Source: Tubulanus polymorphus
Taxonomy: Eukaryota > Nemertea > Palaeonemertea > Tubulaniformes > Tubulanidae
Assembly (NCBI RefSeq): GCF_964204645.1
Contig: NW_027437431.1
Location: forward strand, 124,001-188,000
Reading direction: 5' to 3'
Length of the DNA stretch: 64,000 nucleotides
A program made the position numbers and the translations under genes. The notes below the pieces were generated by a model, which did not search any database, had not been told where the DNA came from, and saw nothing but the letters and a program-made list of their open reading frames with translations. Shown here piece after piece: positions 1 through 50,430 of the stretch. Position 1 is the stretch's first letter. Each line of letters starts with the position of its first letter.

Positions 1-893
1 ATCAGACATTTTTGGACAGTGCTTCGGGTGTGAACGGTGTAGGTGCGAGACTAACGTCGAGTGTATTCAGAGCAAAACGGGCGTTATTTCCAACAATGGC
101 GGAAGAACCGGCATTAAAAAGATCAAAGAGAACGGCGGAAACGGGGAGCGAAGAAGGGAACGCCCAACAAATGATGACTCACATGACGGAAAAGCCGTCA
201 CTACACTATAAGAGCGTGTTAATACATAGAGGTTACCTAACGTTTACGAATTGGGATCCGGACCAGGCGTACGGAGCATTCGGAAGAAAAGCGAAGATTT
301 ACTGTTCGGGAATGAGAACGTTTAACTTCGGATTAAAAGAAAGAGAAGGATGGAGAAGATTTCCAGCCAGCATGGATACCATAGGGATGTGGGATCAATT
401 CAAAGTGACTTCGGGTAAAATAACGTTATACCCCATAGCGAGCGAAAGCGCGGTAAGCTCTGATTCGAACGCGTTCCAAGATCCGATAGTATGGTTAAAG
501 ACGGCAGCCGATTGGGACTTGAAAGTGAAAGACTCGGCCGCCAATACTCACCAGGGATCGCCGTACGCCGATATAAATTTATTAACTCAAAAGCAAAGCT
601 ACAGGCAATACGAATTAGGTCGGGGATGCGTTAGCATGGGATTACCCATGTCGACCATAAGAACCGAAATACAAGACACGAGTGACCCGACAGACGTTAC
701 CAGATCGGTGAATATCGGGGATAACTCGGCGTGGTTAGACGGAGCGTACCGCGATCATTGGCAATCAGCCGCGCTCATTATGCAAATGTTAGTGTACAAC
801 GATTCGATACACGCGGATTTAAACACGCCCCATACAGAAATTATCGTTCCAGCGGAAGTGGAGTTTACGATGATTCATAGAAACAGAGTATAA
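1..893 (+). CDS. Parvovirus-like capsid protein VP, copy 1 (5' end cut by window edge)
   Basis: This is the C-terminal part, from about residue 64 of 360, of the same protein described in full at 3217. The missing N-terminus includes the catalytic part of the PLA2 domain. It is absent only because the window begins inside the unit. The internal start for the shorter capsid form is retained at 96. Confidence 0.9.
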   Translation, partial: QTFLDSASGVNGVGARLTSSVFRAKRALFPTMAEEPALKRSKRTAETGSEEGNAQQMMTHMTEKPSLHYKSVLIHRGYLTFTNWDPDQAYGAFGRKAKIYCSGMRTFNFGLKEREGWRRFPASMDTIGMWDQFKVTSGKITLYPIASESAVSSDSNAFQDPIVWLKTAADWDLKVKDSAANTHQGSPYADINLLTQKQSYRQYELGRGCVSMGLPMSTIRTEIQDTSDPTDVTRSVNIGDNSAWLDGAYRDHWQSAALIMQMLVYNDSIHADLNTPHTEIIVPAEVEFTMIHRNRV

Positions 894-894
894 T

Positions 895-1203
895 ATGATA
901 ATAACTTTCCTATTCTTGGCATCCGGTTTCCTACACGAGTACAAGTGGCACGTATATACTAAACGTATCATGAGTAGAACGCAACGATTCATGAAAATAA
1001 GAGACGAAGTGGCGAACGAGTGGGTCATCAAACACGACGTCAACGAAAATCGGGTACTAAGGGAACAACACATTACAGAAGTAGCGAAAAGGATATTCTA
1101 CTACCGGGAAAAACAATGGGAACTAAGTCGAGAAACTGGTCGTTCACAACCGACAATCGAGCAGAAGTCTGCCTCGAAAGTCAAATCGGAACGTCAACAG
1201 TAA
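895..1203 (+). CDS. 102-aa protein with hydrophobic N-terminus, copy 1
   Basis: I do not recognise this family. The ATG lies one base after the VP stop codon, and the last 88 nt overlap the NS1 reading frame. Residues 1-13 are strongly hydrophobic (MIITFLFLASGFL), like a signal peptide or short membrane anchor. The remainder is highly charged, with many Lys, Arg and Glu, and probably helical. Length and sequence are the same in all 15 copies. The position between capsid and replicase genes could suit a small accessory protein, for example one acting at membranes or in egress, but that is inference. It could also be an upstream exon or frame of NS1 if the transcript is spliced or frameshifted, since the two frames overlap. 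Confidence 0.6.
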   Translation: MIITFLFLASGFLHEYKWHVYTKRIMSRTQRFMKIRDEVANEWVIKHDVNENRVLREQHITEVAKRIFYYREKQWELSRETGRSQPTIEQKSASKVKSERQQ

Positions 1204-2519
1204 CCGTACACATAGGTCCGCAAGAAGATCCGGACGGTTACGCGCACGGAGTAATAATAACGTTAGCCAAAGGTACGCAACGACCGTTGAAACAGAGCGA
1301 AAACGCGATTAGACAACTGTTACACTCGCTAGGCATTAGATTAGTTAACGACTACATCAAACCGACGGAAAAATTAGGCGCCTACATTCAATACATGTAC
1401 AAAGAAGCCGACAAAATACCGGAAGAATTACGAGGTCACTTGGAGGTGAAAAACTCGAAAACGAACGACGACTTTTTCGGCCAAAAGATAAACGCGTTAT
1501 ACGCGGAATACCAACAAAGACCGGGACTAGCCGATTGGACGGCGAGAATAGTGAAGGAGTTCGGTTACAACGTACCCGAACTGAAAGTGAAAAGATCGTT
1601 TAAAAATTGGCCGGTAAGGGTAAAAGATATTACGAGAAACGCGGGTGACTTTGCGTTGAAAATGACGGACATAACAGAGCCGAAATTGACGCCGGAAATG
1701 GGAGTAGAAATTATAACGAAATGCCTGGATAACGTTCAATCGGCGATGTGGGATGGTAAACATATAAATAAACGTGACCTGCTGGTAATATTGGTGAACG
1801 CGGCGATCGAGGGAGGTACGAGTAAAATCAGAAACGCGCCTCATATAATATTTTACGGAGATGCCGGGTCTGGTAAATCGATGTTGGCTAAATTATTGTT
1901 CCCGGATTCGATTACGAGCCAAATGCCGACGGATTCGGAAGGCGTAGGAGCGTGCGAGATGGGAGGAGGACAACGTATATTCAAAGTCGACGACGCCAGC
2001 GACGCTTTTTGGCACAACTCGGGGTTGTTGTCGATGATACTCGCGATGTACCAGTCCACCTGGGAGGCAAAAGTACATTCTAGTAAACAAAGTAACCCGC
2101 CGTGTATGACGGTAATTACGACGAATTGTAAGAATCCGTTAGAGAAGTTCGCCTCTACAGTAGCTTTGGAAGCTGTGGAAAGGAGATTCTTGTCGGTGTA
2201 TTTCAAAGGTAAAGCAGATTTGGGAAACGTAGTTTACGACATTACGCCGGGCGTATGCGAAGAAATATTAGAAATAATAGTTAACGAAATTAGACAAGGT
2301 AGATATCTGGACAACCAAGTCCACTTGGACGACTGGGAAACGGATGATGACGTGGTGATACCGTTCGAAAAAGAAAGAAACTTCATCGAAGCGTACCACG
2401 TAGGTCACATGTCGGACGCGATGCATCAGAATATGGAGGAAAGGTTAAAACGTAAACGTAAAGAAGAAGACGATACGAATGAAACTCTTAAGTTCGCTAA
2501 ACGCGGGGAAATCCTGTAG
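1116..2519 (+). CDS. NS1/Rep-like SF3 helicase protein, copy 1
   Basis: This is the replication initiator/helicase of the unit, expected to act in the nucleus on its own origin. Residues 248-255 (GDAGSGKS) are the Walker A loop. Residues 288-293 (IFKVDD) fit Walker B, and TVITTN (332-337) fits the SF3 motif C with its sensor Asn. An Arg pair (RRF) follows about 20 residues later, as expected for the arginine finger region. The N-terminal part should be the nicking domain. It has YAHGVIITL at 42-50, where a canonical HUH pair would be, and YIQYMYK at 90-96 as the candidate catalytic Tyr/Lys helix. The C-terminus is basic (KRKRKEE). At 467 aa it is shorter than typical parvoviral NS1. I chose the ATG at 1116; the frame is open further upstream to 1020, but only from a GTG. 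Confidence 0.9.
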   Translation: MGTKSRNWSFTTDNRAEVCLESQIGTSTVTVHIGPQEDPDGYAHGVIITLAKGTQRPLKQSENAIRQLLHSLGIRLVNDYIKPTEKLGAYIQYMYKEADKIPEELRGHLEVKNSKTNDDFFGQKINALYAEYQQRPGLADWTARIVKEFGYNVPELKVKRSFKNWPVRVKDITRNAGDFALKMTDITEPKLTPEMGVEIITKCLDNVQSAMWDGKHINKRDLLVILVNAAIEGGTSKIRNAPHIIFYGDAGSGKSMLAKLLFPDSITSQMPTDSEGVGACEMGGGQRIFKVDDASDAFWHNSGLLSMILAMYQSTWEAKVHSSKQSNPPCMTVITTNCKNPLEKFASTVALEAVERRFLSVYFKGKADLGNVVYDITPGVCEEILEIIVNEIRQGRYLDNQVHLDDWETDDDVVIPFEKERNFIEAYHVGHMSDAMHQNMEERLKRKRKEEDDTNETLKFAKRGEIL

Positions 2520-2530
2520 TTGGCAATGTA

Positions 2531-2536
2531 AATAAA
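2531..2536 (+). other. Poly(A) signal AATAAA after NS1
   Basis: AATAAA begins 12 nt after the NS1 stop codon. This fits the 3' end of a transcript covering VP, the 102-aa ORF and NS1. It recurs every 3406 bp. Confidence 0.6.
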
Positions 2537-2538
2537 TC

Positions 2539-2547
2539 TATAAATAG
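2539..2547 (+). promoter_or_regulatory. TATA box (TATAAATAG)
   Basis: This near-consensus TATA box lies immediately after the poly(A) signal and about 670 bp before the VP ATG of the next unit. A second TATA-like tract (TTATATATATAATAAGG) lies at 2637-2653. In a head-to-tail array, either could drive the following unit. Confidence 0.45.
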
Positions 2548-2576
2548 AATTCTATAAATTTCTCAATTCGTTACTA

Positions 2577-2608
2577 CCAGTGGACCCGCAGACCCGCGGA
2601 CCCACTGG
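2577..2608. repeat. Hairpin CCAGTGG/CCACTGG enclosing GACCCGC octamers
   Basis: A stem of 7 bp (2577-2583 with 2602-2608) encloses a GC-rich loop made of octamer repeats GACCCGCA, GACCCGCG and a partial GACCC. The octamers are the complement of those at 2665-2690. They look like iterons, the short repeats bound by a Rep protein. Confidence 0.55.
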
Positions 2609-2690
2609 CTGTTCGTTTTTCATGGTCTACCCCCCCTTATATATATAATAAGGAAAGAGAAGGAGGGTCCGCGGGTCCGCGGGTCTGCGG
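2586..2690. repeat. 18-bp perfect inverted repeat of GC-rich octamers
   Basis: Bases 2586-2603 are the exact reverse complement of 2673-2690, separated by 69 bp that include a run of seven C and a TATATATATAA tract. The right arm belongs to a tandem of GGGTCCGC, GGGTCCGC and GGGTCTGC from 2665. This is a candidate Rep-binding and strand-opening site. Confidence 0.65.
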
Positions 2691-2774
2691 TATTCTCTAA
2701 ACCGAGAATCGAAAAGTTAATGAAACTAGGTCGGAAAGATAACAAATTATTATTCAATATATCCTAAAGCTTCT

Positions 2775-2824
2775 ACGAGGTTGGTCACGCGCTCGCTACG
2801 CTCGCCAGCGTGACACAACCTCGT
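2775..2824. repeat. Long hairpin (16 paired bases, one bulge), candidate origin or former genome terminus
   Basis: ACGAGGTTG plus GTCACGC (2775-2790) pairs with GCGTGAC plus CAACCTCGT (2808-2824), with a single bulged A at 2815. The 17-nt loop contains the direct repeat GCTCGC-TAC-GCTCGC. It is the strongest hairpin of the unit and lies 29 bp beyond the point at which the array terminates in its last copy. By analogy with parvoviral terminal palindromes it could be the replication origin, but this is inference. Confidence 0.6.
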
Positions 2825-2876
2825 GGACGCTCCAAAGATAATGAGTATGTGCTTGATAATGAGTGAATTAATTGGG

Positions 2877-2920
2877 AACCCTATAGCGGGTAAAAGGTAA
2901 GAAGTAGAAATTATAGGGTT
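2877..2920. repeat. 9-bp inverted repeat AACCCTATA/TATAGGGTT
   Basis: Arms at 2877-2885 and 2912-2920 are separated by 26 bp of purine-rich sequence. The repeat is present in each complete noncoding copy. Its role is unknown. Confidence 0.4.
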
Positions 2921-3002
2921 AGGGGTTATCATTATACTCGGATGCCCACAGCCCGTGGTGGTCTGTGACAGTGGAGGTTAGTTAAAGTTCGAGGCGTGTG
3001 AC

Positions 3003-3138
3003 TAGTCGGGGGGAATAACATAGGCGGCTACGCCGCGATAGTTAGTCGGCAAGGTCGGCTGCGCCTCCGGCGGTACAGATTACATCTGAGTGTATTAGTC
3101 TACCAACGGAAGCCCAAACCCTAAATAATATTAGTCGG
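3003..3138. repeat. Three TAGTCGG motifs around a GCGGC-TAC-GCCGC hairpin
   Basis: TAGTCGG occurs at 3003, 3043 and 3132. A small hairpin (3024-3028 with 3032-3036) lies between the first two. These are possible binding sites upstream of the VP start. Confidence 0.35.
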
Positions 3139-3216
3139 AAAAATCTGAGTTAGAGGGTCGCAACCGGTTCAAACAATTTAACATCTCATACAGGTGACTC
3201 GTACTTTTAGTATCAA

Positions 3217-4299
3217 ATGCCATCGTTGAAACGGAGGCGAAACGGATTTACATTGCCCGGTTTACCACATTGCGGTCCATTCAACGATATATCCAGTTAC
3301 AAAAGCGAAGGAATAGACGAAGTGTGCCGTATTCACGACAAAGAGTACGGAGAACTGCAAGAGAAATACGGTAAATGGGCTCCGTACTTCCAGTACAATT
3401 CAGCGGATCAGACATTTTTGGACAGTGCTTCGGGTGTGAACGGTGTAGGTGCGAGACTAACGTCGAGTGTATTCAGAGCAAAACGGGCGTTATTTCCAAC
3501 AATGGCGGAAGAACCGGCATTAAAAAGATCAAAGAGAACGGCGGAAACGGGGAGCGAAGAAGGGAACGCCCAACAAATGATGACTCACATGACGGAAAAG
3601 CCGTCACTACACTATAAGAGCGTGTTAATACATAGAGGTTACCTAACGTTTACGAATTGGGATCCGGACCAGGCGTACGGAGCATTCGGAAGAAAAGCGA
3701 AGATTTACTGTTCGGGAATGAGAACGTTTAACTTCGGATTAAAAGAAAGAGAAGGATGGAGAAGATTTCCAGCCAGCATGGATACCATAGGGATGTGGGA
3801 TCAATTCAAAGTGACTTCGGGTAAAATAACGTTATACCCCATAGCGAGCGAAAGCGCGGTAAGCTCTGATTCGAACGCGTTCCAAGATCCGATAGTATGG
3901 TTAAAGACGGCAGCCGATTGGGACTTGAAAGTGAAAGACTCGGCCGCCAATACTCACCAGGGATCGCCGTACGCCGATATAAATTTATTAACTCAAAAGC
4001 AAAGCTACAGGCAATACGAATTAGGTCGGGGATGCGTTAGCATGGGATTACCCATGTCGACCATAAGAACCGAAATACAAGACACGAGTGACCCGACAGA
4101 CGTTACCAGATCGGTGAATATCGGGGATAACTCGGCGTGGTTAGACGGAGCGTACCGCGATCATTGGCAATCAGCCGCGCTCATTATGCAAATGTTAGTG
4201 TACAACGATTCGATACACGCGGATTTAAACACGCCCCATACAGAAATTATCGTTCCAGCGGAAGTGGAGTTTACGATGATTCATAGAAACAGAGTATAA
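3217..4299 (+). CDS. Parvovirus-like capsid protein VP with N-terminal phospholipase A2 domain, copy 2 (first complete)
   Basis: This is the structural protein of the unit. Residues 1-70 match the parvoviral VP1-unique phospholipase A2, which breaches the endosome during entry. They contain a glycine-bearing calcium loop (LPHCGPFND, about 16-24), the catalytic His-Asp pair in RIHDKEY (H40, D41, Y44) and YNSADQTF at 60-67. KRRR at 5-8 and KRSKR at about 103-107 look like nuclear localisation signals. A second ATG at 3502 (residue 96) has an A at -3 and a G at +4, and would give a 265-aa form without PLA2. The first ATG has C at both positions, so leaky scanning could yield both VP1 and VP2 types. 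The remainder should be a jelly-roll capsid domain; I cannot confirm the fold by eye. It is short compared with most parvoviral VPs. Confidence 0.9.
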   Translation: MPSLKRRRNGFTLPGLPHCGPFNDISSYKSEGIDEVCRIHDKEYGELQEKYGKWAPYFQYNSADQTFLDSASGVNGVGARLTSSVFRAKRALFPTMAEEPALKRSKRTAETGSEEGNAQQMMTHMTEKPSLHYKSVLIHRGYLTFTNWDPDQAYGAFGRKAKIYCSGMRTFNFGLKEREGWRRFPASMDTIGMWDQFKVTSGKITLYPIASESAVSSDSNAFQDPIVWLKTAADWDLKVKDSAANTHQGSPYADINLLTQKQSYRQYELGRGCVSMGLPMSTIRTEIQDTSDPTDVTRSVNIGDNSAWLDGAYRDHWQSAALIMQMLVYNDSIHADLNTPHTEIIVPAEVEFTMIHRNRV

Positions 4300-4300
4300 T

Positions 4301-4609
4301 ATGATAATAACTTTCCTATTCTTGGCATCCGGTTTCCTACACGAGTACAAGTGGCACGTATATACTAAACGTATCATGAGTAGAACGCAACGATTCATGA
4401 AAATAAGAGACGAAGTGGCGAACGAGTGGGTCATCAAACACGACGTCAACGAAAATCGGGTACTAAGGGAACAACACATTACAGAAGTAGCGAAAAGGAT
4501 ATTCTACTACCGGGAAAAACAATGGGAACTAAGTCGAGAAACTGGTCGTTCACAACCGACAATCGAGCAGAAGTCTGCCTCGAAAGTCAAATCGGAACGT
4601 CAACAGTAA
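4301..4609 (+). CDS. 102-aa protein, copy 2
   Basis: Identical protein to that at 895; its ATG is one base after the VP stop. Confidence 0.6.
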   Translation: MIITFLFLASGFLHEYKWHVYTKRIMSRTQRFMKIRDEVANEWVIKHDVNENRVLREQHITEVAKRIFYYREKQWELSRETGRSQPTIEQKSASKVKSERQQ

Positions 4610-5925
4610 CCGTACACATAGGTCCGCAAGAAGATCCGGACGGTTACGCGCACGGAGTAATAATAACGTTAGCCAAAGGTACGCAACGACCGTTGAAACA
4701 GAGCGAAAACGCGATTAGACAACTGTTACACTCGCTAGGCATTAGATTAGTTAACGACTACATCAAACCGACGGAAAAATTAGGCGCCTACATTCAATAC
4801 ATGTACAAAGAAGCCGACAAAATACCGGAAGAATTACGAGGTCACTTGGAGGTGAAAAACTCGAAAACGAACGACGACTTTTTCGGCCAAAAGATAAACG
4901 CGTTATACGCGGAATACCAACAAAGACCGGGACTAGCCGATTGGACGGCGAGAATAGTGAAGGAGTTCGGTTACAACGTACCCGAACTGAAAGTGAAAAG
5001 ATCGTTTAAAAATTGGCCGGTAAGGGTAAAAGATATTACGAGAAACGCGGGTGACTTTGCGTTGAAAATGACGGACATAACAGAGCCGAAATTGACGCCG
5101 GAAATGGGAGTAGAAATTATAACGAAATGCCTGGATAACGTTCAATCGGCGATGTGGGATGGTAAACATATAAATAAACGTGACCTGCTGGTAATATTGG
5201 TGAACGCGGCGATCGAGGGAGGTACGAGTAAAATCAGAAACGCGCCTCATATAATATTTTACGGAGATGCCGGGTCTGGTAAATCGATGTTGGCTAAATT
5301 ATTGTTCCCGGATTCGATTACGAGCCAAATGCCGACGGATTCGGAAGGCGTAGGAGCGTGCGAGATGGGAGGAGGACAACGTATATTCAAAGTCGACGAC
5401 GCCAGCGACGCTTTTTGGCACAACTCGGGGTTGTTGTCGATGATACTCGCGATGTACCAGTCCACCTGGGAGGCAAAAGTACATTCTAGTAAACAAAGTA
5501 ACCCGCCGTGTATGACGGTAATTACGACGAATTGTAAGAATCCGTTAGAGAAGTTCGCCTCTACAGTAGCTTTGGAAGCTGTGGAAAGGAGATTCTTGTC
5601 GGTGTATTTCAAAGGTAAAGCAGATTTGGGAAACGTAGTTTACGACATTACGCCGGGCGTATGCGAAGAAATATTAGAAATAATAGTTAACGAAATTAGA
5701 CAAGGTAGATATCTGGACAACCAAGTCCACTTGGACGACTGGGAAACGGATGATGACGTGGTGATACCGTTCGAAAAAGAAAGAAACTTCATCGAAGCGT
5801 ACCACGTAGGTCACATGTCGGACGCGATGCATCAGAATATGGAGGAAAGGTTAAAACGTAAACGTAAAGAAGAAGACGATACGAATGAAACTCTTAAGTT
5901 CGCTAAACGCGGGGAAATCCTGTAG
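4522..5925 (+). CDS. NS1/Rep-like SF3 helicase protein, copy 2
   Basis: Identical protein to that at 1116. First copy for which the upstream VP is complete in the window. Confidence 0.9.
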   Translation: MGTKSRNWSFTTDNRAEVCLESQIGTSTVTVHIGPQEDPDGYAHGVIITLAKGTQRPLKQSENAIRQLLHSLGIRLVNDYIKPTEKLGAYIQYMYKEADKIPEELRGHLEVKNSKTNDDFFGQKINALYAEYQQRPGLADWTARIVKEFGYNVPELKVKRSFKNWPVRVKDITRNAGDFALKMTDITEPKLTPEMGVEIITKCLDNVQSAMWDGKHINKRDLLVILVNAAIEGGTSKIRNAPHIIFYGDAGSGKSMLAKLLFPDSITSQMPTDSEGVGACEMGGGQRIFKVDDASDAFWHNSGLLSMILAMYQSTWEAKVHSSKQSNPPCMTVITTNCKNPLEKFASTVALEAVERRFLSVYFKGKADLGNVVYDITPGVCEEILEIIVNEIRQGRYLDNQVHLDDWETDDDVVIPFEKERNFIEAYHVGHMSDAMHQNMEERLKRKRKEEDDTNETLKFAKRGEIL

Positions 5926-6622
5926 TTGGCAATGTAAATAAATCTATAAATAGAATTCTATAAATTTCTCAATTCGTTACTACCAGTGGACCCGCAGACC
6001 CGCGGACCCACTGGCTGTTCGTTTTTCATGGTCTACCCCCCCTTATATATATAATAAGGAAAGAGAAGGAGGGTCCGCGGGTCCGCGGGTCTGCGGTATT
6101 CTCTAAACCGAGAATCGAAAAGTTAATGAAACTAGGTCGGAAAGATAACAAATTATTATTCAATATATCCTAAAGCTTCTACGAGGTTGGTCACGCGCTC
6201 GCTACGCTCGCCAGCGTGACACAACCTCGTGGACGCTCCAAAGATAATGAGTATGTGCTTGATAATGAGTGAATTAATTGGGAACCCTATAGCGGGTAAA
6301 AGGTAAGAAGTAGAAATTATAGGGTTAGGGGTTATCATTATACTCGGATGCCCACAGCCCGTGGTGGTCTGTGACAGTGGAGGTTAGTTAAAGTTCGAGG
6401 CGTGTGACTAGTCGGGGGGAATAACATAGGCGGCTACGCCGCGATAGTTAGTCGGCAAGGTCGGCTGCGCCTCCGGCGGTACAGATTACATCTGAGTGTA
6501 TTAGTCTACCAACGGAAGCCCAAACCCTAAATAATATTAGTCGGAAAAATCTGAGTTAGAGGGTCGCAACCGGTTCAAACAATTTAACATCTCATACAGG
6601 TGACTCGTACTTTTAGTATCAA
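5926..6622. promoter_or_regulatory. Noncoding control region, copy 2
   Basis: Same content as 2520-3216; the long hairpin lies at 6181-6230. Confidence 0.65.
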
Positions 6623-7705
6623 ATGCCATCGTTGAAACGGAGGCGAAACGGATTTACATTGCCCGGTTTACCACATTGCGGTCCATTCAACGATATATCC
6701 AGTTACAAAAGCGAAGGAATAGACGAAGTGTGCCGTATTCACGACAAAGAGTACGGAGAACTGCAAGAGAAATACGGTAAATGGGCTCCGTACTTCCAGT
6801 ACAATTCAGCGGATCAGACATTTTTGGACAGTGCTTCGGGTGTGAACGGTGTAGGTGCGAGACTAACGTCGAGTGTATTCAGAGCAAAACGGGCGTTATT
6901 TCCAACAATGGCGGAAGAACCGGCATTAAAAAGATCAAAGAGAACGGCGGAAACGGGGAGCGAAGAAGGGAACGCCCAACAAATGATGACTCACATGACG
7001 GAAAAGCCGTCACTACACTATAAGAGCGTGTTAATACATAGAGGTTACCTAACGTTTACGAATTGGGATCCGGACCAGGCGTACGGAGCATTCGGAAGAA
7101 AAGCGAAGATTTACTGTTCGGGAATGAGAACGTTTAACTTCGGATTAAAAGAAAGAGAAGGATGGAGAAGATTTCCAGCCAGCATGGATACCATAGGGAT
7201 GTGGGATCAATTCAAAGTGACTTCGGGTAAAATAACGTTATACCCCATAGCGAGCGAAAGCGCGGTAAGCTCTGATTCGAACGCGTTCCAAGATCCGATA
7301 GTATGGTTAAAGACGGCAGCCGATTGGGACCTGAAAGTGAAAGACTCGGCCGCCAATACTCACCAGGGATCGCCGTACGCCGATATAAATTTATTAACTC
7401 AAAAGCAAAGCTACAGGCAATACGAATTAGGTCGGGGATGCGTTAGCATGGGATTACCCATGTCGACCATAAGAACCGAAATACAAGACACGAGTGACCC
7501 GACAGACGTTACCAGATCGGTGAATATCGGGGATAACTCGGCGTGGTTAGACGGAGCGTACCGCGATCATTGGCAATCAGCCGCGCTCATTATGCAAATG
7601 TTAGTGTACAACGATTCGATACACGCGGATTTAAACACGCCCCATACAGAAATTATCGTTCCAGCGGAAGTGGAGTTTACGATGATTCATAGAAACAGAG
7701 TATAA
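6623..7705 (+). CDS. Capsid protein VP, copy 3
   Basis: Protein identical to the copy at 3217. One silent change is visible: a Leu codon reads CTG instead of TTG at 7331. Confidence 0.9.
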   Translation: MPSLKRRRNGFTLPGLPHCGPFNDISSYKSEGIDEVCRIHDKEYGELQEKYGKWAPYFQYNSADQTFLDSASGVNGVGARLTSSVFRAKRALFPTMAEEPALKRSKRTAETGSEEGNAQQMMTHMTEKPSLHYKSVLIHRGYLTFTNWDPDQAYGAFGRKAKIYCSGMRTFNFGLKEREGWRRFPASMDTIGMWDQFKVTSGKITLYPIASESAVSSDSNAFQDPIVWLKTAADWDLKVKDSAANTHQGSPYADINLLTQKQSYRQYELGRGCVSMGLPMSTIRTEIQDTSDPTDVTRSVNIGDNSAWLDGAYRDHWQSAALIMQMLVYNDSIHADLNTPHTEIIVPAEVEFTMIHRNRV

Positions 7706-7706
7706 T

Positions 7707-8015
7707 ATGATAATAACTTTCCTATTCTTGGCATCCGGTTTCCTACACGAGTACAAGTGGCACGTATATACTAAACGTATCATGAGTAGAACGCAACGAT
7801 TCATGAAAATAAGAGACGAAGTGGCGAACGAGTGGGTCATCAAACACGACGTCAACGAAAATCGGGTACTAAGGGAACAACACATTACAGAAGTAGCGAA
7901 AAGGATATTCTACTACCGGGAAAAACAATGGGAACTAAGTCGAGAAACTGGTCGTTCACAACCGACAATCGAGCAGAAGTCTGCCTCGAAAGTCAAATCG
8001 GAACGTCAACAGTAA
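7707..8015 (+). CDS. 102-aa protein, copy 3
   Basis: Identical to that at 895. Confidence 0.6.
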   Translation: MIITFLFLASGFLHEYKWHVYTKRIMSRTQRFMKIRDEVANEWVIKHDVNENRVLREQHITEVAKRIFYYREKQWELSRETGRSQPTIEQKSASKVKSERQQ

Positions 8016-9331: not shown

Positions 9332-10028
9332 TTGGCAATGTAAATAAATCTATAAATAGAATTCTATAAATTTCTCAATTCGTTACTACCAGTGGACCCG
9401 CAGACCCGCGGACCCACTGGCTGTTCGTTTTTCATGGTCTACCCCCCCTTATATATATAATAAGGAAAGAGAAGGAGGGTCCGCGGGTCCGCGGGTCTGC
9501 GGTATTCTCTAAACCGAGAATCGAAAAGTTAATGAAACTAGGTCGGAAAGATAACAAATTATTATTCAATATATCCTAAAGCTTCTACGAGGTTGGTCAC
9601 GCGCTCGCTACGCTCGCCAGCGTGACACAACCTCGTGGACGCTCCAAAGATAATGAGTATGTGCTTGATAATGAGTGAATTAATTGGGAACCCTATAGCG
9701 GGTAAAAGGTAAGAAGTAGAAATTATAGGGTTAGGGGTTATCATTATACTCGGATGCCCACAGCCCGTGGTGGTCTGTGACAGTGGAGGTTAGTTAAAGT
9801 TCGAGGCGTGTGACTAGTCGGGGGGAATAACATAGGCGGCTACGCCGCGATAGTTAGTCGGCAAGGTCGGCTGCGCCTCCGGCGGTACAGATTACATCTG
9901 AGTGTATTAGTCTACCAACGGAAGCCCAAACCCTAAATAATATTAGTCGGAAAAATCTGAGTTAGAGGGTCGCAACCGGTTCAAACAATTTAACATCTCA
10001 TACAGGTGACTCGTACTTTTAGTATCAA
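9332..10028. promoter_or_regulatory. Noncoding control region, copy 3
   Basis: Same content as 2520-3216; long hairpin at 9587-9636. Confidence 0.65.
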
Positions 10029-11111: not shown

Positions 11112-11112
11112 T

Positions 11113-14517: not shown

Positions 14518-14518
14518 T

Positions 14519-17923: not shown

Positions 17924-17924
17924 T

Positions 17925-31547: not shown

Positions 31548-31548
31548 T

Positions 31549-34953: not shown

Positions 34954-34954
34954 T

Positions 34955-38359: not shown

Positions 38360-38360
38360 T

Positions 38361-41765: not shown

Positions 41766-41766
41766 T

Positions 41767-42075
41767 ATGATAATAACTTTCCTATTCTTGGCATCCGGTT
41801 TCCTACACGAGTACAAGTGGCACGTATATACTAAACGTATCATGAGTAGAACGCAACGATTCATGAAAATAAGAGACGAAGTGGCGAACGAGTGGGTCAT
41901 CAAACACGACGTCAACGAAAATCGGGTACTAAGGGAACAACACATTACAGAAGTAGCGAAAAGGATATTCTACTACCGGGAAAAACAATGGGAACTAAGT
42001 CGAGAAACTGGTCGTTCACAACCGACAATCGAGCAGAAGTCTGCCTCGAAAGTCAAATCGGAACGTCAACAGTAA
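41767..42075 (+). CDS. 102-aa protein, copy 13
   Basis: Identical to that at 895. Confidence 0.6.
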   Translation: MIITFLFLASGFLHEYKWHVYTKRIMSRTQRFMKIRDEVANEWVIKHDVNENRVLREQHITEVAKRIFYYREKQWELSRETGRSQPTIEQKSASKVKSERQQ

Positions 42076-43391
42076 CCGTACACATAGGTCCGCAAGAAGA
42101 TCCGGACGGTTACGCGCACGGAGTAATAATAACGTTAGCCAAAGGTACGCAACGACCGTTGAAACAGAGCGAAAACGCGATTAGACAACTGTTACACTCG
42201 CTAGGCATTAGATTAGTTAACGACTACATCAAACCGACGGAAAAATTAGGCGCCTACATTCAATACATGTACAAAGAAGCCGACAAAATACCGGAAGAAT
42301 TACGAGGTCACTTGGAGGTGAAAAACTCGAAAACGAACGACGACTTTTTCGGCCAAAAGATAAACGCGTTATACGCGGAATACCAACAAAGACCGGGACT
42401 AGCCGATTGGACGGCGAGAATAGTGAAGGAGTTCGGTTACAACGTACCCGAACTGAAAGTGAAAAGATCGTTTAAAAATTGGCCGGTAAGGGTAAAAGAT
42501 ATTACGAGAAACGCGGGTGACTTTGCGTTGAAAATGACGGACATAACAGAGCCGAAATTGACGCCGGAAATGGGAGTAGAAATTATAACGAAATGCCTGG
42601 ATAACGTTCAATCGGCGATGTGGGATGGTAAACATATAAATAAACGTGACCTGCTGGTAATATTGGTGAACGCGGCGATCGAGGGAGGTACGAGTAAAAT
42701 CAGAAACGCGCCTCATATAATATTTTACGGAGATGCCGGGTCTGGTAAATCGATGTTGGCTAAATTATTGTTCCCGGATTCGATTACGAGCCAAATGCCG
42801 ACGGATTCGGAAGGCGTAGGAGCGTGCGAGATGGGAGGAGGACAACGTATATTCAAAGTCGACGACGCCAGCGACGCTTTTTGGCACAACTCGGGGTTGT
42901 TGTCGATGATACTCGCGATGTACCAGTCCACCTGGGAGGCAAAAGTACATTCTAGTAAACAAAGTAACCCGCCGTGTATGACGGTAATTACGACGAATTG
43001 TAAGAATCCGTTAGAGAAGTTCGCCTCTACAGTAGCTTTGGAAGCTGTGGAAAGGAGATTCTTGTCGGTGTATTTCAAAGGTAAAGCAGATTTGGGAAAC
43101 GTAGTTTACGACATTACGCCGGGCGTATGCGAAGAAATATTAGAAATAATAGTTAACGAAATTAGACAAGGTAGATATCTGGACAACCAAGTCCACTTGG
43201 ACGACTGGGAAACGGATGATGACGTGGTGATACCGTTCGAAAAAGAAAGAAACTTCATCGAAGCGTACCACGTAGGTCACATGTCGGACGCGATGCATCA
43301 GAATATGGAGGAAAGGTTAAAACGTAAACGTAAAGAAGAAGACGATACGAATGAAACTCTTAAGTTCGCTAAACGCGGGGAAATCCTGTAG
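41988..43391 (+). CDS. NS1/Rep-like protein, copy 13
   Basis: Identical protein to that at 1116. Confidence 0.9.
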   Translation: MGTKSRNWSFTTDNRAEVCLESQIGTSTVTVHIGPQEDPDGYAHGVIITLAKGTQRPLKQSENAIRQLLHSLGIRLVNDYIKPTEKLGAYIQYMYKEADKIPEELRGHLEVKNSKTNDDFFGQKINALYAEYQQRPGLADWTARIVKEFGYNVPELKVKRSFKNWPVRVKDITRNAGDFALKMTDITEPKLTPEMGVEIITKCLDNVQSAMWDGKHINKRDLLVILVNAAIEGGTSKIRNAPHIIFYGDAGSGKSMLAKLLFPDSITSQMPTDSEGVGACEMGGGQRIFKVDDASDAFWHNSGLLSMILAMYQSTWEAKVHSSKQSNPPCMTVITTNCKNPLEKFASTVALEAVERRFLSVYFKGKADLGNVVYDITPGVCEEILEIIVNEIRQGRYLDNQVHLDDWETDDDVVIPFEKERNFIEAYHVGHMSDAMHQNMEERLKRKRKEEDDTNETLKFAKRGEIL

Positions 43392-44088
43392 TTGGCAATG
43401 TAAATAAATCTATAAATAGAATTCTATAAATTTCTCAATTCGTTACTACCAGTGGACCCGCAGACCCGCGGACCCACTGGCTGTTCGTTTTTCATGGTCT
43501 ACCCCCCCTTATATATATAATAAGGAAAGAGAAGGAGGGTCCGCGGGTCCGCGGGTCTGCGGTATTCTCTAAACCGAGAATCGAAAAGTTAATGAAACTA
43601 GGTCGGAAAGATAACAAATTATTATTCAATATATCCTAAAGCTTCTACGAGGTTGGTCACGCGCTCGCTACGCTCGCCAGCGTGACACAACCTCGTGGAC
43701 GCTCCAAAGATAATGAGTATGTGCTTGATAATGAGTGAATTAATTGGGAACCCTATAGCGGGTAAAAGGTAAGAAGTAGAAATTATAGGGTTAGGGGTTA
43801 TCATTATACTCGGATGCCCACAGCCCGTGGTGGTCTGTGACAGTGGAGGTTAGTTAAAGTTCGAGGCGTGTGACTAGTCGGGGGGAATAACATAGGCGGC
43901 TACGCCGCGATAGTTAGTCGGCAAGGTCGGCTGCGCCTCCGGCGGTACAGATTACATCTGAGTGTATTAGTCTACCAACGGAAGCCCAAACCCTAAATAA
44001 TATTAGTCGGAAAAATCTGAGTTAGAGGGTCGCAACCGGTTCAAACAATTTAACATCTCATACAGGTGACTCGTACTTTTAGTATCAA
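43392..44088. promoter_or_regulatory. Noncoding control region, copy 13
   Basis: Same content as 2520-3216; long hairpin at 43647-43696. Confidence 0.65.
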
Positions 44089-45171
44089 ATGCCATCGTTG
44101 AAACGGAGGCGAAACGGATTTACATTGCCCGGTTTACCACATTGCGGTCCATTCAACGATATATCCAGTTACAAAAGCGAAGGAATAGACGAAGTGTGCC
44201 GTATTCACGACAAAGAGTACGGAGAACTGCAAGAGAAATACGGTAAATGGGCTCCGTACTTCCAGTACAATTCAGCGGATCAGACATTTTTGGACAGTGC
44301 TTCGGGTGTGAACGGTGTAGGTGCGAGACTAACGTCGAGTGTATTCAGAGCAAAACGGGCGTTATTTCCAACAATGGCGGAAGAACCGGCATTAAAAAGA
44401 TCAAAGAGAACGGCGGAAACGGGGAGCGAAGAAGGGAACGCCCAACAAATGATGACTCACATGACGGAAAAGCCGTCACTACACTATAAGAGCGTGTTAA
44501 TACATAGAGGTTACCTAACGTTTACGAATTGGGATCCGGACCAGGCGTACGGAGCATTCGGAAGAAAAGCGAAGATTTACTGTTCGGGAATGAGAACGTT
44601 TAACTTCGGATTAAAAGAAAGAGAAGGATGGAGAAGATTTCCAGCCAGCATGGATACCATAGGGATGTGGGATCAATTCAAAGTGACTTCGGGTAAAATA
44701 ACGTTATACCCCATAGCGAGCGAAAGCGCGGTAAGCTCTGATTCGAACGCGTTCCAAGATCCGATAGTATGGTTAAAGACGGCAGCCGATTGGGACTTGA
44801 AAGTGAAAGACTCGGCCGCCAATACTCACCAGGGATCGCCGTACGCCGATATAAATTTATTAACTCAAAAGCAAAGCTACAGGCAATACGAATTAGGTCG
44901 GGGATGCGTTAGCATGGGATTACCCATGTCGACCATAAGAACCGAAATACAAGACACGAGTGACCCGACAGACGTTACCAGATCGGTGAATATCGGGGAT
45001 AACTCGGCGTGGTTAGACGGAGCGTACCGCGATCATTGGCAATCAGCCGCGCTCATTATGCAAATTTTAGTGTACAACGATTCGATACACGCGGATTTAA
45101 ACACGCCCCATACAGAAATTATCGTTCCAGCGGAAGTGGAGTTTACGATGATTCATAGAAACAGAGTATAA
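44089..45171 (+). CDS. Capsid protein VP, copy 14 (Met-to-Ile variant)
   Basis: As at 3217, except that G-to-T at 45066 changes a Met near the C-terminus (in IMQML) to Ile. Confidence 0.9.
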   Translation: MPSLKRRRNGFTLPGLPHCGPFNDISSYKSEGIDEVCRIHDKEYGELQEKYGKWAPYFQYNSADQTFLDSASGVNGVGARLTSSVFRAKRALFPTMAEEPALKRSKRTAETGSEEGNAQQMMTHMTEKPSLHYKSVLIHRGYLTFTNWDPDQAYGAFGRKAKIYCSGMRTFNFGLKEREGWRRFPASMDTIGMWDQFKVTSGKITLYPIASESAVSSDSNAFQDPIVWLKTAADWDLKVKDSAANTHQGSPYADINLLTQKQSYRQYELGRGCVSMGLPMSTIRTEIQDTSDPTDVTRSVNIGDNSAWLDGAYRDHWQSAALIMQILVYNDSIHADLNTPHTEIIVPAEVEFTMIHRNRV

Positions 45172-45172
45172 T

Positions 45173-45481
45173 ATGATAATAACTTTCCTATTCTTGGCAT
45201 CCGGTTTCCTACACGAGTACAAGTGGCACGTATATACTAAACGTATCATGAGTAGAACGCAACGATTCATGAAAATAAGAGACGAAGTGGCGAACGAGTG
45301 GGTCATCAAACACGACGTCAACGAAAATCGGGTACTAAGGGAACAACACATTACAGAAGTAGCGAAAAGGATATTCTACTACCGGGAAAAACAATGGGAA
45401 CTAAGTCGAGAAACTGGTCGTTCACAACCGACAATCGAGCAGAAGTCTGCCTCGAAAGTCAAATCGGAACGTCAACAGTAA
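45173..45481 (+). CDS. 102-aa protein, copy 14
   Basis: Identical to that at 895. Confidence 0.6.
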   Translation: MIITFLFLASGFLHEYKWHVYTKRIMSRTQRFMKIRDEVANEWVIKHDVNENRVLREQHITEVAKRIFYYREKQWELSRETGRSQPTIEQKSASKVKSERQQ

Positions 45482-46797
45482 CCGTACACATAGGTCCGCA
45501 AGAAGATCCGGACGGTTACGCGCACGGAGTAATAATAACGTTAGCCAAAGGTACGCAACGACCGTTGAAACAGAGCGAAAACGCGATTAGACAACTGTTA
45601 CACTCGCTAGGCATTAGATTAGTTAACGACTACATCAAACCGACGGAAAAATTAGGCGCCTACATTCAATACATGTACAAAGAAGCCGACAAAATACCGG
45701 AAGAATTACGAGGTCACTTGGAGGTGAAAAACTCGAAAACGAACGACGACTTTTTCGGCCAAAAGATAAACGCGTTATACGCGGAATACCAACAAAGACC
45801 GGGACTAGCCGATTGGACGGCGAGAATAGTGAAGGAGTTCGGTTACAACGTACCCGAACTGAAAGTGAAAAGATCGTTTAAAAATTGGCCGGTAAGGGTA
45901 AAAGATATTACGAGAAACGCGGGTGACTTTGCGTTGAAAATGACGGACATAACAGAGCCGAAATTGACGCCGGAAATGGGAGTAGAAATTATAACGAAAT
46001 GCCTGGATAACGTTCAATCGGCGATGTGGGATGGTAAACATATAAATAAACGTGACCTGCTGGTAATATTGGTGAACGCGGCGATCGAGGGAGGTACGAG
46101 TAAAATCAGAAACGCGCCTCATATAATATTTTACGGAGATGCCGGGTCTGGTAAATCGATGTTGGCTAAATTATTGTTCCCGGATTCGATTACGAGCCAA
46201 ATGCCGACGGATTCGGAAGGCGTAGGAGCGTGCGAGATGGGAGGAGGACAACGTATATTCAAAGTCGACGACGCCAGCGACGCTTTTTGGCACAACTCGG
46301 GGTTGTTGTCGATGATACTCGCGATGTACCAGTCCACCTGGGAGGCAAAAGTACATTCTAGTAAACAAAGTAACCCGCCGTGTATGACGGTAATTACGAC
46401 GAATTGTAAGAATCCGTTAGAGAAGTTCGCCTCTACAGTAGCTTTGGAAGCTGTGGAAAGGAGATTCTTGTCGGTGTATTTCAAAGGTAAAGCAGATTTG
46501 GGAAACGTAGTTTACGACATTACGCCGGGCGTATGCGAAGAAATATTAGAAATAATAGTTAACGAAATTAGACAAGGTAGATATCTGGACAACCAAGTCC
46601 ACTTGGACGACTGGGAAACGGATGATGACGTGGTGATACCGTTCGAAAAAGAAAGAAACTTCATCGAAGCGTACCACGTAGGTCACATGTCGGACGCGAT
46701 GCATCAGAATATGGAGGAAAGGTTAAAACGTAAACGTAAAGAAGAAGACGATACGAATGAAACTCTTAAGTTCGCTAAACGCGGGGAAATCCTGTAG
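45394..46797 (+). CDS. NS1/Rep-like protein, copy 14
   Basis: Identical protein to that at 1116. Confidence 0.9.
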   Translation: MGTKSRNWSFTTDNRAEVCLESQIGTSTVTVHIGPQEDPDGYAHGVIITLAKGTQRPLKQSENAIRQLLHSLGIRLVNDYIKPTEKLGAYIQYMYKEADKIPEELRGHLEVKNSKTNDDFFGQKINALYAEYQQRPGLADWTARIVKEFGYNVPELKVKRSFKNWPVRVKDITRNAGDFALKMTDITEPKLTPEMGVEIITKCLDNVQSAMWDGKHINKRDLLVILVNAAIEGGTSKIRNAPHIIFYGDAGSGKSMLAKLLFPDSITSQMPTDSEGVGACEMGGGQRIFKVDDASDAFWHNSGLLSMILAMYQSTWEAKVHSSKQSNPPCMTVITTNCKNPLEKFASTVALEAVERRFLSVYFKGKADLGNVVYDITPGVCEEILEIIVNEIRQGRYLDNQVHLDDWETDDDVVIPFEKERNFIEAYHVGHMSDAMHQNMEERLKRKRKEEDDTNETLKFAKRGEIL

Positions 46798-47494
46798 TTG
46801 GCAATGTAAATAAATCTATAAATAGAATTCTATAAATTTCTCAATTCGTTACTACCAGTGGACCCGCAGACCCGCGGACCCACTGGCTGTTCGTTTTTCA
46901 TGGTCTACCCCCCCTTATATATATAATAAGGAAAGAGAAGGAGGGTCCGCGGGTCCGCGGGTCTGCGGTATTCTCTAAACCGAGAATCGAAAAGTTAATG
47001 AAACTAGGTCGGAAAGATAACAAATTATTATTCAATATATCCTAAAGCTTCTACGAGGTTGGTCACGCGCTCGCTACGCTCGCCAGCGTGACACAACCTC
47101 GTGGACGCTCCAAAGATAATGAGTATGTGCTTGATAATGAGTGAATTAATTGGGAACCCTATAGCGGGTAAAAGGTAAGAAGTAGAAATTATAGGGTTAG
47201 GGGTTATCATTATACTCGGATGCCCACAGCCCGTGGTGGTCTGTGACAGTGGAGGTTAGTTAAAGTTCGAGGCGTGTGACTAGTCGGGGGGAATAACATA
47301 GGCGGCTACGCCGCGATAGTTTGTCGGCAAGGTCGGCTGCGCCTCCGGCGGTACAGATTACATCTGAGTGTATTAGTCTACCAACGGAAGCCCAAACCCT
47401 AAATAATATTAGTCGGAAAAATCTGAGTTAGAGGGTCGCAACCGGTTCAAACAATTTAACATCTCATACAGGTGACTCGTACTTTTAGTATCAA
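46798..47494. promoter_or_regulatory. Noncoding control region, copy 14
   Basis: As 2520-3216, with one change: A-to-T at 47322 destroys the middle TAGTCGG motif (now TTGTCGG). Long hairpin at 47053-47102. Confidence 0.65.
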
Positions 47495-48577
47495 ATGCCA
47501 TCGTTGAAACGGAGGCGAAACGGATTTACATTGCCCGGTTTACCACATTGCGGTCCATTCAACGATATATCCAGTTACAAAAGCGAAGGAATAGACGAAG
47601 TGTGCCGTATTCACGACAAAGAGTACGGAGAACTGCAAGAGAAATACGGTAAATGGGCTCCGTACTTCCAGTACAATTCAGCGGATCAGACATTTTTGGA
47701 CAGTGCTTCGGGTGTGAACGGTGTAGGTGCGAGACTAACGTCGAGTGTATTCAGAGCAAAACGGGCGTTATTTCCAACAATGGCGGAAGAACCGGCATTA
47801 AAAAGATCAAAGAGAACGGCGGAAACGGGGAGCGAAGAAGGGAACGCCCAACAAATGATGACTCACATGACGGAAAAGCCGTCACTACACTATAAGAGCG
47901 TGTTAATACATAGAGGTTACCTAACGTTTACGAATTGGGATCCGGACCAGGCGTACGGAGCATTCGGAAGAAAAGCGAAGATTTACTGTTCGGGAATGAG
48001 AACGTTTAACTTCGGATTAAAAGAAAGAGAAGGATGGAGAAGATTTCCAGCCAGCATGGATACCATAGGGATGTGGGATCAATTCAAAGTGACTTCGGGT
48101 AAAATAACGTTATACCCCATAGCGAGCGAAAGCGCGGTAAGCTCTGATTCGAACGCGTTCCAAGATCCGATAGTATGGTTAAAGACGGCAGCCGATTGGG
48201 ACTTGAAAGTGAAAGACTCGGCCGCCAATACTCACCAGGGATCGCCGTACGCCGATATAAATTTATTAACTCAAAAGCAAAGCTACAGGCAATACGAATT
48301 AGGTCGGGGATGCGTTAGCATGGGATTACCCATGTCGACCATAAGAACCGAAATACAAGACACGAGTGACCCGACAGACGTTACCAGATCGGTGAATATC
48401 GGGGATAACTCGGCGTGGTTAGACGGAGCGTACCGCGATCATTGGCAATCAGCCGCGCTCATTATGCAAATGTTAGTGTACAACGATTCGATACACGCGG
48501 ATTTAAACACGCCCCATACAGAAATTATCGTTCCAGCGGAAGTGGAGTTTACGATGATTCATAGAAACAGAGTATAA
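47495..48577 (+). CDS. Capsid protein VP, copy 15
   Basis: Identical protein to that at 3217; last VP before the array ends. Confidence 0.9.
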   Translation: MPSLKRRRNGFTLPGLPHCGPFNDISSYKSEGIDEVCRIHDKEYGELQEKYGKWAPYFQYNSADQTFLDSASGVNGVGARLTSSVFRAKRALFPTMAEEPALKRSKRTAETGSEEGNAQQMMTHMTEKPSLHYKSVLIHRGYLTFTNWDPDQAYGAFGRKAKIYCSGMRTFNFGLKEREGWRRFPASMDTIGMWDQFKVTSGKITLYPIASESAVSSDSNAFQDPIVWLKTAADWDLKVKDSAANTHQGSPYADINLLTQKQSYRQYELGRGCVSMGLPMSTIRTEIQDTSDPTDVTRSVNIGDNSAWLDGAYRDHWQSAALIMQMLVYNDSIHADLNTPHTEIIVPAEVEFTMIHRNRV

Positions 48578-48578
48578 T

Positions 48579-48887
48579 ATGATAATAACTTTCCTATTCT
48601 TGGCATCCGGTTTCCTACACGAGTACAAGTGGCACGTATATACTAAACGTATCATGAGTAGAACGCAACGATTCATGAAAATAAGAGACGAAGTGGCGAA
48701 CGAGTGGGTCATCAAACACGACGTCAACGAAAATCGGGTACTAAGGGAACAACACATTACAGAAGTAGCGAAAAGGATATTCTACTACCGGGAAAAACAA
48801 TGGGAACTAAGTCGAGAAACTGGTCGTTCACAACCGACAATCGAGCAGAAGTCTGCCTCGAAAGTCAAATCGGAACGTCAACAGTAA
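48579..48887 (+). CDS. 102-aa protein, copy 15
   Basis: Identical to that at 895. Confidence 0.6.
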   Translation: MIITFLFLASGFLHEYKWHVYTKRIMSRTQRFMKIRDEVANEWVIKHDVNENRVLREQHITEVAKRIFYYREKQWELSRETGRSQPTIEQKSASKVKSERQQ

Positions 48888-50203
48888 CCGTACACATAGG
48901 TCCGCAAGAAGATCCGGACGGTTACGCGCACGGAGTAATAATAACGTTAGCCAAAGGTACGCAACGACCGTTGAAACAGAGCGAAAACGCGATTAGACAA
49001 CTGTTACACTCGCTAGGCATTAGATTAGTTAACGACTACATCAAACCGACGGAAAAATTAGGCGCCTACATTCAATACATGTACAAAGAAGCCGACAAAA
49101 TACCGGAAGAATTACGAGGTCACTTGGAGGTGAAAAACTCGAAAACGAACGACGACTTTTTCGGCCAAAAGATAAACGCGTTATACGCGGAATACCAACA
49201 AAGACCGGGACTAGCCGATTGGACGGCGAGAATAGTGAAGGAGTTCGGTTACAACGTACCCGAACTGAAAGTGAAAAGATCGTTTAAAAATTGGCCGGTA
49301 AGGGTAAAAGATATTACGAGAAACGCGGGTGACTTTGCGTTGAAAATGACGGACATAACAGAGCCGAAATTGACGCCGGAAATGGGAGTAGAAATTATAA
49401 CGAAATGCCTGGATAACGTTCAATCGGCGATGTGGGATGGTAAACATATAAATAAACGTGACCTGCTGGTAATATTGGTGAACGCGGCGATCGAGGGAGG
49501 TACGAGTAAAATCAGAAACGCGCCTCATATAATATTTTACGGAGATGCCGGGTCTGGTAAATCGATGTTGGCTAAATTATTGTTCCCGGATTCGATTACG
49601 AGCCAAATGCCGACGGATTCGGAAGGCGTAGGAGCGTGCGAGATGGGAGGAGGACAACGTATATTCAAAGTCGACGACGCCAGCGACGCTTTTTGGCACA
49701 ACTCGGGGTTGTTGTCGATGATACTCGCGATGTACCAGTCCACCTGGGAGGCAAAAGTACATTCTAGTAAACAAAGTAACCCGCCGTGTATGACGGTAAT
49801 TACGACGAATTGTAAGAATCCGTTAGAGAAGTTCGCCTCTACAGTAGCTTTGGAAGCTGTGGAAAGGAGATTCTTGTCGGTGTATTTCAAAGGTAAAGCA
49901 GATTTGGGAAACGTAGTTTACGACATTACGCCGGGCGTATGCGAAGAAATATTAGAAATAATAGTTAACGAAATTAGACAAGGTAGATATCTGGACAACC
50001 AAGTCCACTTGGACGACTGGGAAACGGATGATGACGTGGTGATACCGTTCGAAAAAGAAAGAAACTTCATCGAAGCGTACCACGTAGGTCACATGTCGGA
50101 CGCGATGCATCAGAATATGGAGGAAAGGTTAAAACGTAAACGTAAAGAAGAAGACGATACGAATGAAACTCTTAAGTTCGCTAAACGCGGGGAAATCCTG
50201 TAG
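48800..50203 (+). CDS. NS1/Rep-like protein, copy 15 (last)
   Basis: Identical protein to that at 1116. It is complete, although the array ends 227 bp after its stop codon. Confidence 0.9.
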   Translation: MGTKSRNWSFTTDNRAEVCLESQIGTSTVTVHIGPQEDPDGYAHGVIITLAKGTQRPLKQSENAIRQLLHSLGIRLVNDYIKPTEKLGAYIQYMYKEADKIPEELRGHLEVKNSKTNDDFFGQKINALYAEYQQRPGLADWTARIVKEFGYNVPELKVKRSFKNWPVRVKDITRNAGDFALKMTDITEPKLTPEMGVEIITKCLDNVQSAMWDGKHINKRDLLVILVNAAIEGGTSKIRNAPHIIFYGDAGSGKSMLAKLLFPDSITSQMPTDSEGVGACEMGGGQRIFKVDDASDAFWHNSGLLSMILAMYQSTWEAKVHSSKQSNPPCMTVITTNCKNPLEKFASTVALEAVERRFLSVYFKGKADLGNVVYDITPGVCEEILEIIVNEIRQGRYLDNQVHLDDWETDDDVVIPFEKERNFIEAYHVGHMSDAMHQNMEERLKRKRKEEDDTNETLKFAKRGEIL

Positions 50204-50430
50204 TTGGCAATGTAAATAAATCTATAAATAGAATTCTATAAATTTCTCAATTCGTTACTACCAGTGGACCCGCAGACCCGCGGACCCACTGGCTGTTCGT
50301 TTTTCATGGTCTACCCCCCCTTATATATATAATAAGGAAAGAGAAGGAGGGTCCGCGGGTCCGCGGGTCTGCGGTATTCTCTAAACCGAGAATCGAAAAG
50401 TTAATGAAACTAGGTCGGAAAGATAACAAA
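50204..50430. promoter_or_regulatory. Truncated noncoding region of the last unit and array/flank junction
   Basis: Matches 2520-2746 and then stops matching after AAAGATAACAAA at 50430. The poly(A) signal, TATA boxes and octamer inverted repeat are kept. The long hairpin, which would begin 29 bp further on, is absent. DNA beyond is AT-rich and unrelated to the unit. Confidence 0.85.

Follow-up and report, generated by a model that had tools for sequence, protein, structure and literature searches.

The window analyzed here, a stretch of 64,000 nucleotides from the nemertean Tubulanus polymorphus (assembly GCF_964204645.1, contig NW_027437431.1, positions 124,001 to 188,000), is largely occupied by a head-to-tail array of a 3,406-bp parvovirus-like unit, and the contig that contains it alternates this array (A) with a 45.4-kb segment of host DNA (S) in the order S-A-S-A. 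We interpret the locus as a young virus-host hybrid amplification, in which a viral multimer became joined to both ends of a host segment that also lies uninterrupted on another contig. From the assembly alone, we put the probability of this interpretation at about 0.6.

Architecture of the contig

The contig, hereafter C14, is an unplaced sequence of 241,462 bp in a 267.8-Mb assembly of 77 contigs, and the window corresponds to C14:124001-188000. It reads, in order, S (C14:1-38389, clipped at the contig start), a first array A1 (C14:38390-174430, plus strand), a second, full-length copy of S (C14:174431-219878, 45,448 bp) and a second array A2 (C14:219879-241462, clipped at the contig end), with S and array together forming a higher-order period of 181,489 bp. 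A1 holds 39.94 head-to-tail units and A2 a further 6.34. The window takes in 14.81 units of A1 (1..50430, plus strand) and the first 13.6 kb of the second S copy (50431..64000, plus strand). When the array in the window is compared with itself at a lag of 3,406 bp, there are 13 mismatches, 7 variable columns and no indels; the period ends at position 50430, where the following five 10-base blocks agree at only 1-3 of 10 positions. Tandem Repeats Finder, with a longest period of 500 bp, was blind to this unit. A first-pass annotation of the window had described at least 14.8 near-identical tandem copies and placed the left end of the array, and therefore additional copies, outside the window. 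Our counts confirm that this repeat is real, and that it is larger than first described.

The array joints and the uninterrupted site

S is also present, unbroken, on the 31.9-Mb contig C2 (C2:17,666,838-17,712,286, minus strand; 45,449 bp, one base more than the second C14 copy). At the right joint (window 50430..50431, C14:174430/174431), virus passes into S on C14, whereas on C2 other host DNA passes into S and the sequence runs through without virus. At the left joint, S turns into virus on C14, whereas on C2 it is followed by what we read as a BEL/Pao-like sequence. Both joints are sharp, each with ∼2 bp of microhomology common to the two sides. The S-to-array joint occurs twice on C14, in identical form, and the array-to-S joint occurs once. 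Full-length matches to a 1-kb probe from S were found twice on C14 and once on C2 (best 40 of 300 candidates scored), and the C2 sequence beyond S gave one full-length match (best 40 of 598 candidates scored).

The array links the two outer ends of S, which C2 carries as one continuous piece; this requires either a tandem duplication with virus between the copies or a circle. The presence of one S/array joint at two places, together with the uninterrupted site on C2, makes a simple mis-assembly unlikely. Virus joined to host DNA, the property by which an endogenous viral element is recognized, is thus seen at both joints in C14, with the empty site on C2. The proposal in the first-pass annotation of a recent head-to-tail concatemer of an intact unit agrees well with the low divergence, the open genes and the sharp host joints near a hairpin. 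The locus is nevertheless more than a simple integration: the flank beginning after 50430 is the 45-kb segment S, which is not single-copy and, beyond what the window could show, lies on both sides of the array as part of a virus-host hybrid repeat.

Divergence within the array and between copies of S

Across 46 complete units and the part units, we found 16 different substitutions and a single 1-bp insertion, which lies in a run of C. Fifteen of the substitutions come from the comparison of all units, in which the tail of the insertion-bearing unit was out of register; the sixteenth was found in this tail once it had been read in register. That unit (VP start C14:72720) carries the insertion and one adjacent substitution, so the lack of indels reported by the first-pass annotation holds within the window and not elsewhere in the array. 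Three substitutions occur in more than one unit, all with neighboring carriers (units 11 and 12, with 36 in addition; 13 and 14; 34 and 35), an arrangement with a chance probability of 3.5e-4, which suggests unequal exchange after the array had formed. The distinct coding changes number 11 (five silent, five residue-altering and one stop); with 6 of 11 altering the protein, the variants show no clear constraint.

The two copies of S on C14 differ at 14 columns over ∼38.4 kb. At these columns, C2 agrees with copy 1 at nine and with copy 2 at five; columns at which both C14 copies agree and C2 differs were sought in the pieces of C2 that were examined. Five of the copy-2 changes fall in a 115-bp stretch of an inverted-repeat arm, perhaps the result of one conversion event. 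Eight of the 14 differences map to two paired 585-bp inverted-repeat arms or next to them (C14:13701-15231 versus C14:195191-196720), a pattern that looks like local conversion. Divergence is thus of one order, 1e-4, in the array and in S, indicating either that all of these copies are young or that the differences are partly consensus error. Stretches free of variants are up to 17.8 kb long, about the length of an ordinary long read, so that the unit count can be trusted only as far as the reads extend.

Genes of the unit

In the last unit, the VP-like coat gene is an open reading frame (ORF) of 360 aa at window 47495..48577 (plus strand) that recurs every 3,406 bp and carries a phospholipase A2 (PLA2)-like domain at residues 10-89. 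These residues match Phospholip_A2_4 (Pfam PF08398, E=2.4e-11), and the same model matches three of five aligned members of the VP family (best E=3e-14). The N-terminal ∼110 residues match capsid chains in the PDB (best chain ‘VP1’, E=1.3e-12, or 2.2e-13 using the alignment), and the alignment also matched the AAV-DJ capsid chain (E=3.7e-9). From the end of the PLA2-like region to residue 360, there were no Pfam or PDB matches. The H-D pair and loop residues of the domain, which we take to have their usual PLA2 role, are kept between the array VP and a relative on contig C11 (see below).

The NS1/Rep-like ORF lies at window 48704..50203 (plus strand) and encodes 499 aa from a GTG, or 467 aa from the ATG at 48800, the first likely start. 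A small ORF (48579..48887, plus strand, 102 aa from ATG) overlaps its beginning in another frame; it was also read one unit earlier, at 45173-45481, and is kept in the C11 relative (tblastn E=1.4e-26). Read by eye, the NS1-like protein contains Walker-type motifs (GDAGSGKS, FKVDDAS and VITTN) and Rep-like motifs (FTTDN, YAHGVI and YMYK), which are conserved across the relatives. The YuxK-like YMYK is found in both the array and C11, and the HuH position is YAH in the array and FAH in C11. Judged by these motifs, the protein is probably Rep/helicase-like. A Pfam scan of four members gave weak, mixed matches (best AAA_10, E=0.0022; RNA_helicase, E=0.043), and Parvo_NS1 was not among the matches with the limit set at E=10, where HMMER filters discard most matches above E∼0.1. 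Against the PDB, nothing of weight was found (best E=0.018).

Genome-wide, there are at least 53 VP matches and at least 51 NS1 matches, both counts being lower bounds. The VP matches include 47 array copies (46 complete, one clipped by the contig end), and the NS1 matches include 46 array copies, all of them complete, open and on C14. One of the 46 complete VP genes carries a TGA and 45 are open; the unit is therefore intact, as the first-pass annotation had it, except in this one VP gene.

Non-coding part and hairpins

The non-coding part of the unit (∼700 bp) contains a GC-rich inverted repeat I with 18-21-nt arms (46861..46968, and again at 50267-50374 in the last unit) and a hairpin II (47046..47109), a candidate replication origin or terminal palindrome. 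In a DNA fold test, these gave z=-5.48 and z=-5.55, respectively, and 0 of 200 shuffles were as good for either. An AATAAA at 46809..46814 (plus strand), 12 nt past the NS1-like stop, is by our reading a possible poly-A signal. On the right, the array ends ∼22 bp short of where hairpin II would lie, and on the left it begins ∼116 bp past that point; ∼200 bp including the hairpin are missing at the outer edges of the array. In window 46700-64000, neither an Rfam family nor a tRNA was detected.

Short GGCTNCGCC-type palindromes recur in non-coding DNA, both at window 47304-47350 and in the C11 relative (L015 5399-5471), and we read them as candidate Rep-binding repeats. We also considered TAATATTAG, in the non-coding part of the unit, as a CRESS-type origin; by our reading it was not seen in the C11 stretches read, and this candidate was dropped.

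Decayed relatives in the same genome

Relatives at ∼43-66% identity are found on five contigs: a near-complete one on C11, and fragments on C8, C2, C5 and C10. The C11 relative (∼47-60% identical) has VP in two open pieces, the small ORF and NS1, in the same gene order as the array, with NS1 interrupted by a single stop and by a shift of frame. It consists of one unit between two 70-bp direct repeats at a spacing of 3,195 bp. The genome has no third match to the repeat, and we read the relative as what may be a 1.02-unit piece of a head-to-tail form. Between the array and C11, nonsynonymous divergence (dN) is 0.34, 0.52 and 0.34 (two VP pieces and one NS1 piece), with synonymous divergence (dS) of 1.9 or saturated, indicating that these genes evolved under constraint. 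For two pieces on C8, dN is 0.30 and 0.41 and dS is saturated. The virus lineage probably entered the host lineage more than once.

The C8 pieces, a decayed NS1 (L016 3657-4019) and a decayed VP (L034 853-1122), have the same orientation and lie ∼4.3 kb apart. They are perhaps one old insertion, comprising parts of two neighboring units with an insert between them.

Origin of the hybrid repeat

How could a small viral unit come to link the two ends of a host segment and be repeated with it? We propose that a 3.4-kb DNA virus-like element, with a PLA2 coat-like gene, a Rep/helicase-like gene and a hairpin origin, existed as head-to-tail multimers, which would have been generated by rolling-circle replication. 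One such multimer, broken near the hairpin, would have been end-joined to both ends of the 45.4-kb C2 segment, presumably beside a hairpin nicked by Rep, to yield the 181.5-kb repeat. Single units and the whole block of S plus array may then have been amplified by unequal exchange.

Several observations weigh against this interpretation. C14 contains no sequence from beyond S, which would suit a circle no less than a tandem. Variants in the array and S, at a rate of order 1e-4, could be partly consensus error. The 70-bp direct repeats on C11 could be a target-site duplication, an alternative to the 1.02-unit piece. The C11 stretches taken for the hairpin and the inverted repeat fold no better than shuffled versions (z=-0.93 and 0.46). 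In that copy, decayed as it is, this argues against conservation of the structure. For the NS1-like protein, neither an HUH-like nor a superfamily 3 (SF3)-like reading was confirmed by the profile searches, and single-sequence structure models of both proteins are poor, with mean predicted local distance difference test (pLDDT) values of 32.8 and 33.7.

The competing explanation that survives best, although we consider it unlikely, is an extrachromosomal circle: S would have been excised together with the viral multimer, and C14 would correspond to 1.33 turns of one hybrid circle of 181.5 kb (or of its multimer). Such a circle would account for the recurrence of the first 60 kb of C14 as its last 60 kb, for the fact that nothing beyond S is joined to S there, and for the small size of C14 while C2 holds S uninterrupted. 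One molecule read twice should agree with itself, yet the two S copies differ at the 14 columns described above, where C2 sides with each of them in part, and the first six units of A1 and A2 are two substitutions apart. These differences weigh against a circle, unless they stem from errors in the consensus or the circle is a multimer whose copies have diverged. Between a tandem on one copy of the C2 locus and a large circle, the tandem is slightly favored, with copy number and linkage taken as assembled.

Far less credible is an old, domesticated chromosomal array that gene conversion has homogenized and that selection maintains for a host function such as particle proteins or antiviral small RNA. 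The open state of all 46 complete NS1-like genes, the variants common to neighboring units and the older relatives, which indicate long contact with the host lineage, are compatible with it. However, divergence among the S copies and the C2 site is of the same low order as that among the units, so the insertion looks young; selection on a single gene would not account for whole units with hairpins; and constraint on the variants is not evident. An assembly artefact, in which reads of free virus were chained and wrongly joined to a host repeat, might explain why C14 ends inside an array and, given the length of the variant-free stretches, could mean that the unit number is mis-stated, but it is equally improbable, because the S/array joint is identical at both places, C2 shows the origin of each side, S is host DNA, and all 46 array-type NS1 genes found sit on C14 alone.

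Comparison with known systems

Members of the Parvoviridae package single-stranded DNA in icosahedral particles and have an SF3 helicase domain in NS1; many, but not all, have a PLA2 domain at the N terminus of VP1. Endogenous parvoviruses have mostly been described as decayed fragments, and the whitefly and shrimp cases discussed below fit this description. The unit resembles this family (Parvovirinae, Densovirinae and Hamaparvovirinae) in its PLA2-like coat start, its Rep/helicase-like protein with a YuxK-type motif, its non-coding hairpins and its small genome, and it differs from the family in several respects. Parvoviridae carry the NS gene on the left and VP on the right of the genome (PMC11357303), whereas VP precedes NS1 here, on one strand, in both the array and C11, where the boundaries lie outside VP-NS1; left and right are undefined if the genome is circular. 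Described for the family are the NS1 endonuclease motifs HuH and YuxK and a size range of 3.9-6.3 kb (PMC12297876) for the linear genomes with terminal hairpins. By comparison, our element has (Y/F)AH instead of HuH, although the YuxK-like YMYK is present, and a unit of only 3,406 bp (∼3,195 bp on C11), known here from an integrated or assembled form. The coat protein is only 360 aa, and the Parvo_NS1 models find no counterpart. The label parvovirus-like in the first-pass annotation is thus upheld by the PLA2 region of the coat protein and contradicted by the missing Parvo_NS1 match, the reversed gene order and the short unit. Because neither the gene order nor HuH is that of the family, and the unit lies below the stated size range, the element should not be placed in Parvoviridae. 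Its sequence suggests that it may work like a parvovirus-type replicon that concatemerizes head to tail.

Among 5.8 billion proteins, no match was found to the NS1-like protein (E≤0.01), to VP (E≤0.01) or to the NS1 alignment (E≤0.1), by a method that finds only relatives with 5-residue words in common. No relative was found in IMG/VR, a phage collection had none for VP, and searches of PHROGs and NCBIfam returned nothing of use.

The closest known array is a 33.5-kb array in whitefly with 29 copies of a 1.1-kb NS1 fragment, ∼75% identical to virus (PMC12297876). Like ours, it is a head-to-tail array of parvovirus-type sequence in an animal assembly, but it repeats a partial gene, whereas here complete multi-gene units are ∼1e-4 apart, form a hybrid with 45 kb of host DNA and are accompanied by the empty site. 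The closest structural analogue is provided by virus-host concatemers of human papillomavirus (HPV) in tumors. In these structures, termed ‘heterocateny’, viral concatemers alternate with host segments at recurrent breakpoints, in chromosomal or circular form, and looping, rolling-circle and recombination models have been put forward for them (PMC13386876). The S-A-S-A order shows this alternation and these recurrent breakpoints; the HPV case concerns a papillomavirus, human tumors and many related structures, whereas ours concerns a parvovirus-like element, an animal assembly and one structure. An endogenous element of infectious hypodermal and hematopoietic necrosis virus in Penaeus monodon is a 9-kb jumble of repeated and inverted fragments (PMC8982415); it likewise has repeated parvoviral sequence in an invertebrate genome and inverted-repeat junctions, without intact head-to-tail units. 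No array of complete parvovirus units was found among the titles and abstract starts listed by searches of the open-access PMC literature.

We tentatively suggest, as a broader reading that we hold with less than even confidence, that a new lineage of parvovirus-like animal viruses (VP before Rep, YAH/FAH, circular or head-to-tail form) recently captured 45 kb of host DNA and was amplified as a 181-kb hybrid repeat, perhaps inherited, in an apparently ordinary animal, which would constitute heterocateny outside cancer. One genome holds the empty site, both joints, forty almost identical units with open genes, and older members of the same virus lineage, and from such a locus the concatemerization of a small DNA virus, its joining to host DNA and its later evolution can be read directly. 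A coat protein with PLA2 combined with a divergent Rep in reversed gene order would extend the notion of parvovirus-like. If the hybrid repeat is inherited, the virus-host co-amplification known from tumors also occurs in animal germlines.

Other features of the host segment and genome

Within S, window 50688-51430 is an abundant dispersed repeat: other contigs hold at least 38 relatives at 80-84% identity (best 40 of 1,233 candidates scored). Window 53582-58213 is an AT-rich (∼21-27% GC) inverted duplication with 1,789-bp arms that are 99.7-100% alike and a 1,054-bp center. A 24-bp repeat occurs thirteen times in each arm. The arms also carry related ORFs, one per arm, and the longer of the two ends in what we read as a zinc-finger-like stretch. 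An ORF for a retroviral-type aspartyl protease lies at window 58102-58938 (minus strand; PF09668, E=9.7e-14). From window 62526 to 64000, and on to C14:190973, we read ORFs like those of a retrotransposon without long terminal repeats (non-LTR), in the order zinc-knuckle plus SGNH-esterase-like, then endonuclease/reverse transcriptase-like. COX1 had no match, and PF00379 had 0 matches here and likewise none in the controls. Genome-wide, the glutamate-receptor ligand-binding family PF10613 gave 77 exon-by-exon matches, 74 of them above the cut-off, which is many for a 268-Mb genome; read by eye, these exons look NMDA/AMPA-like.

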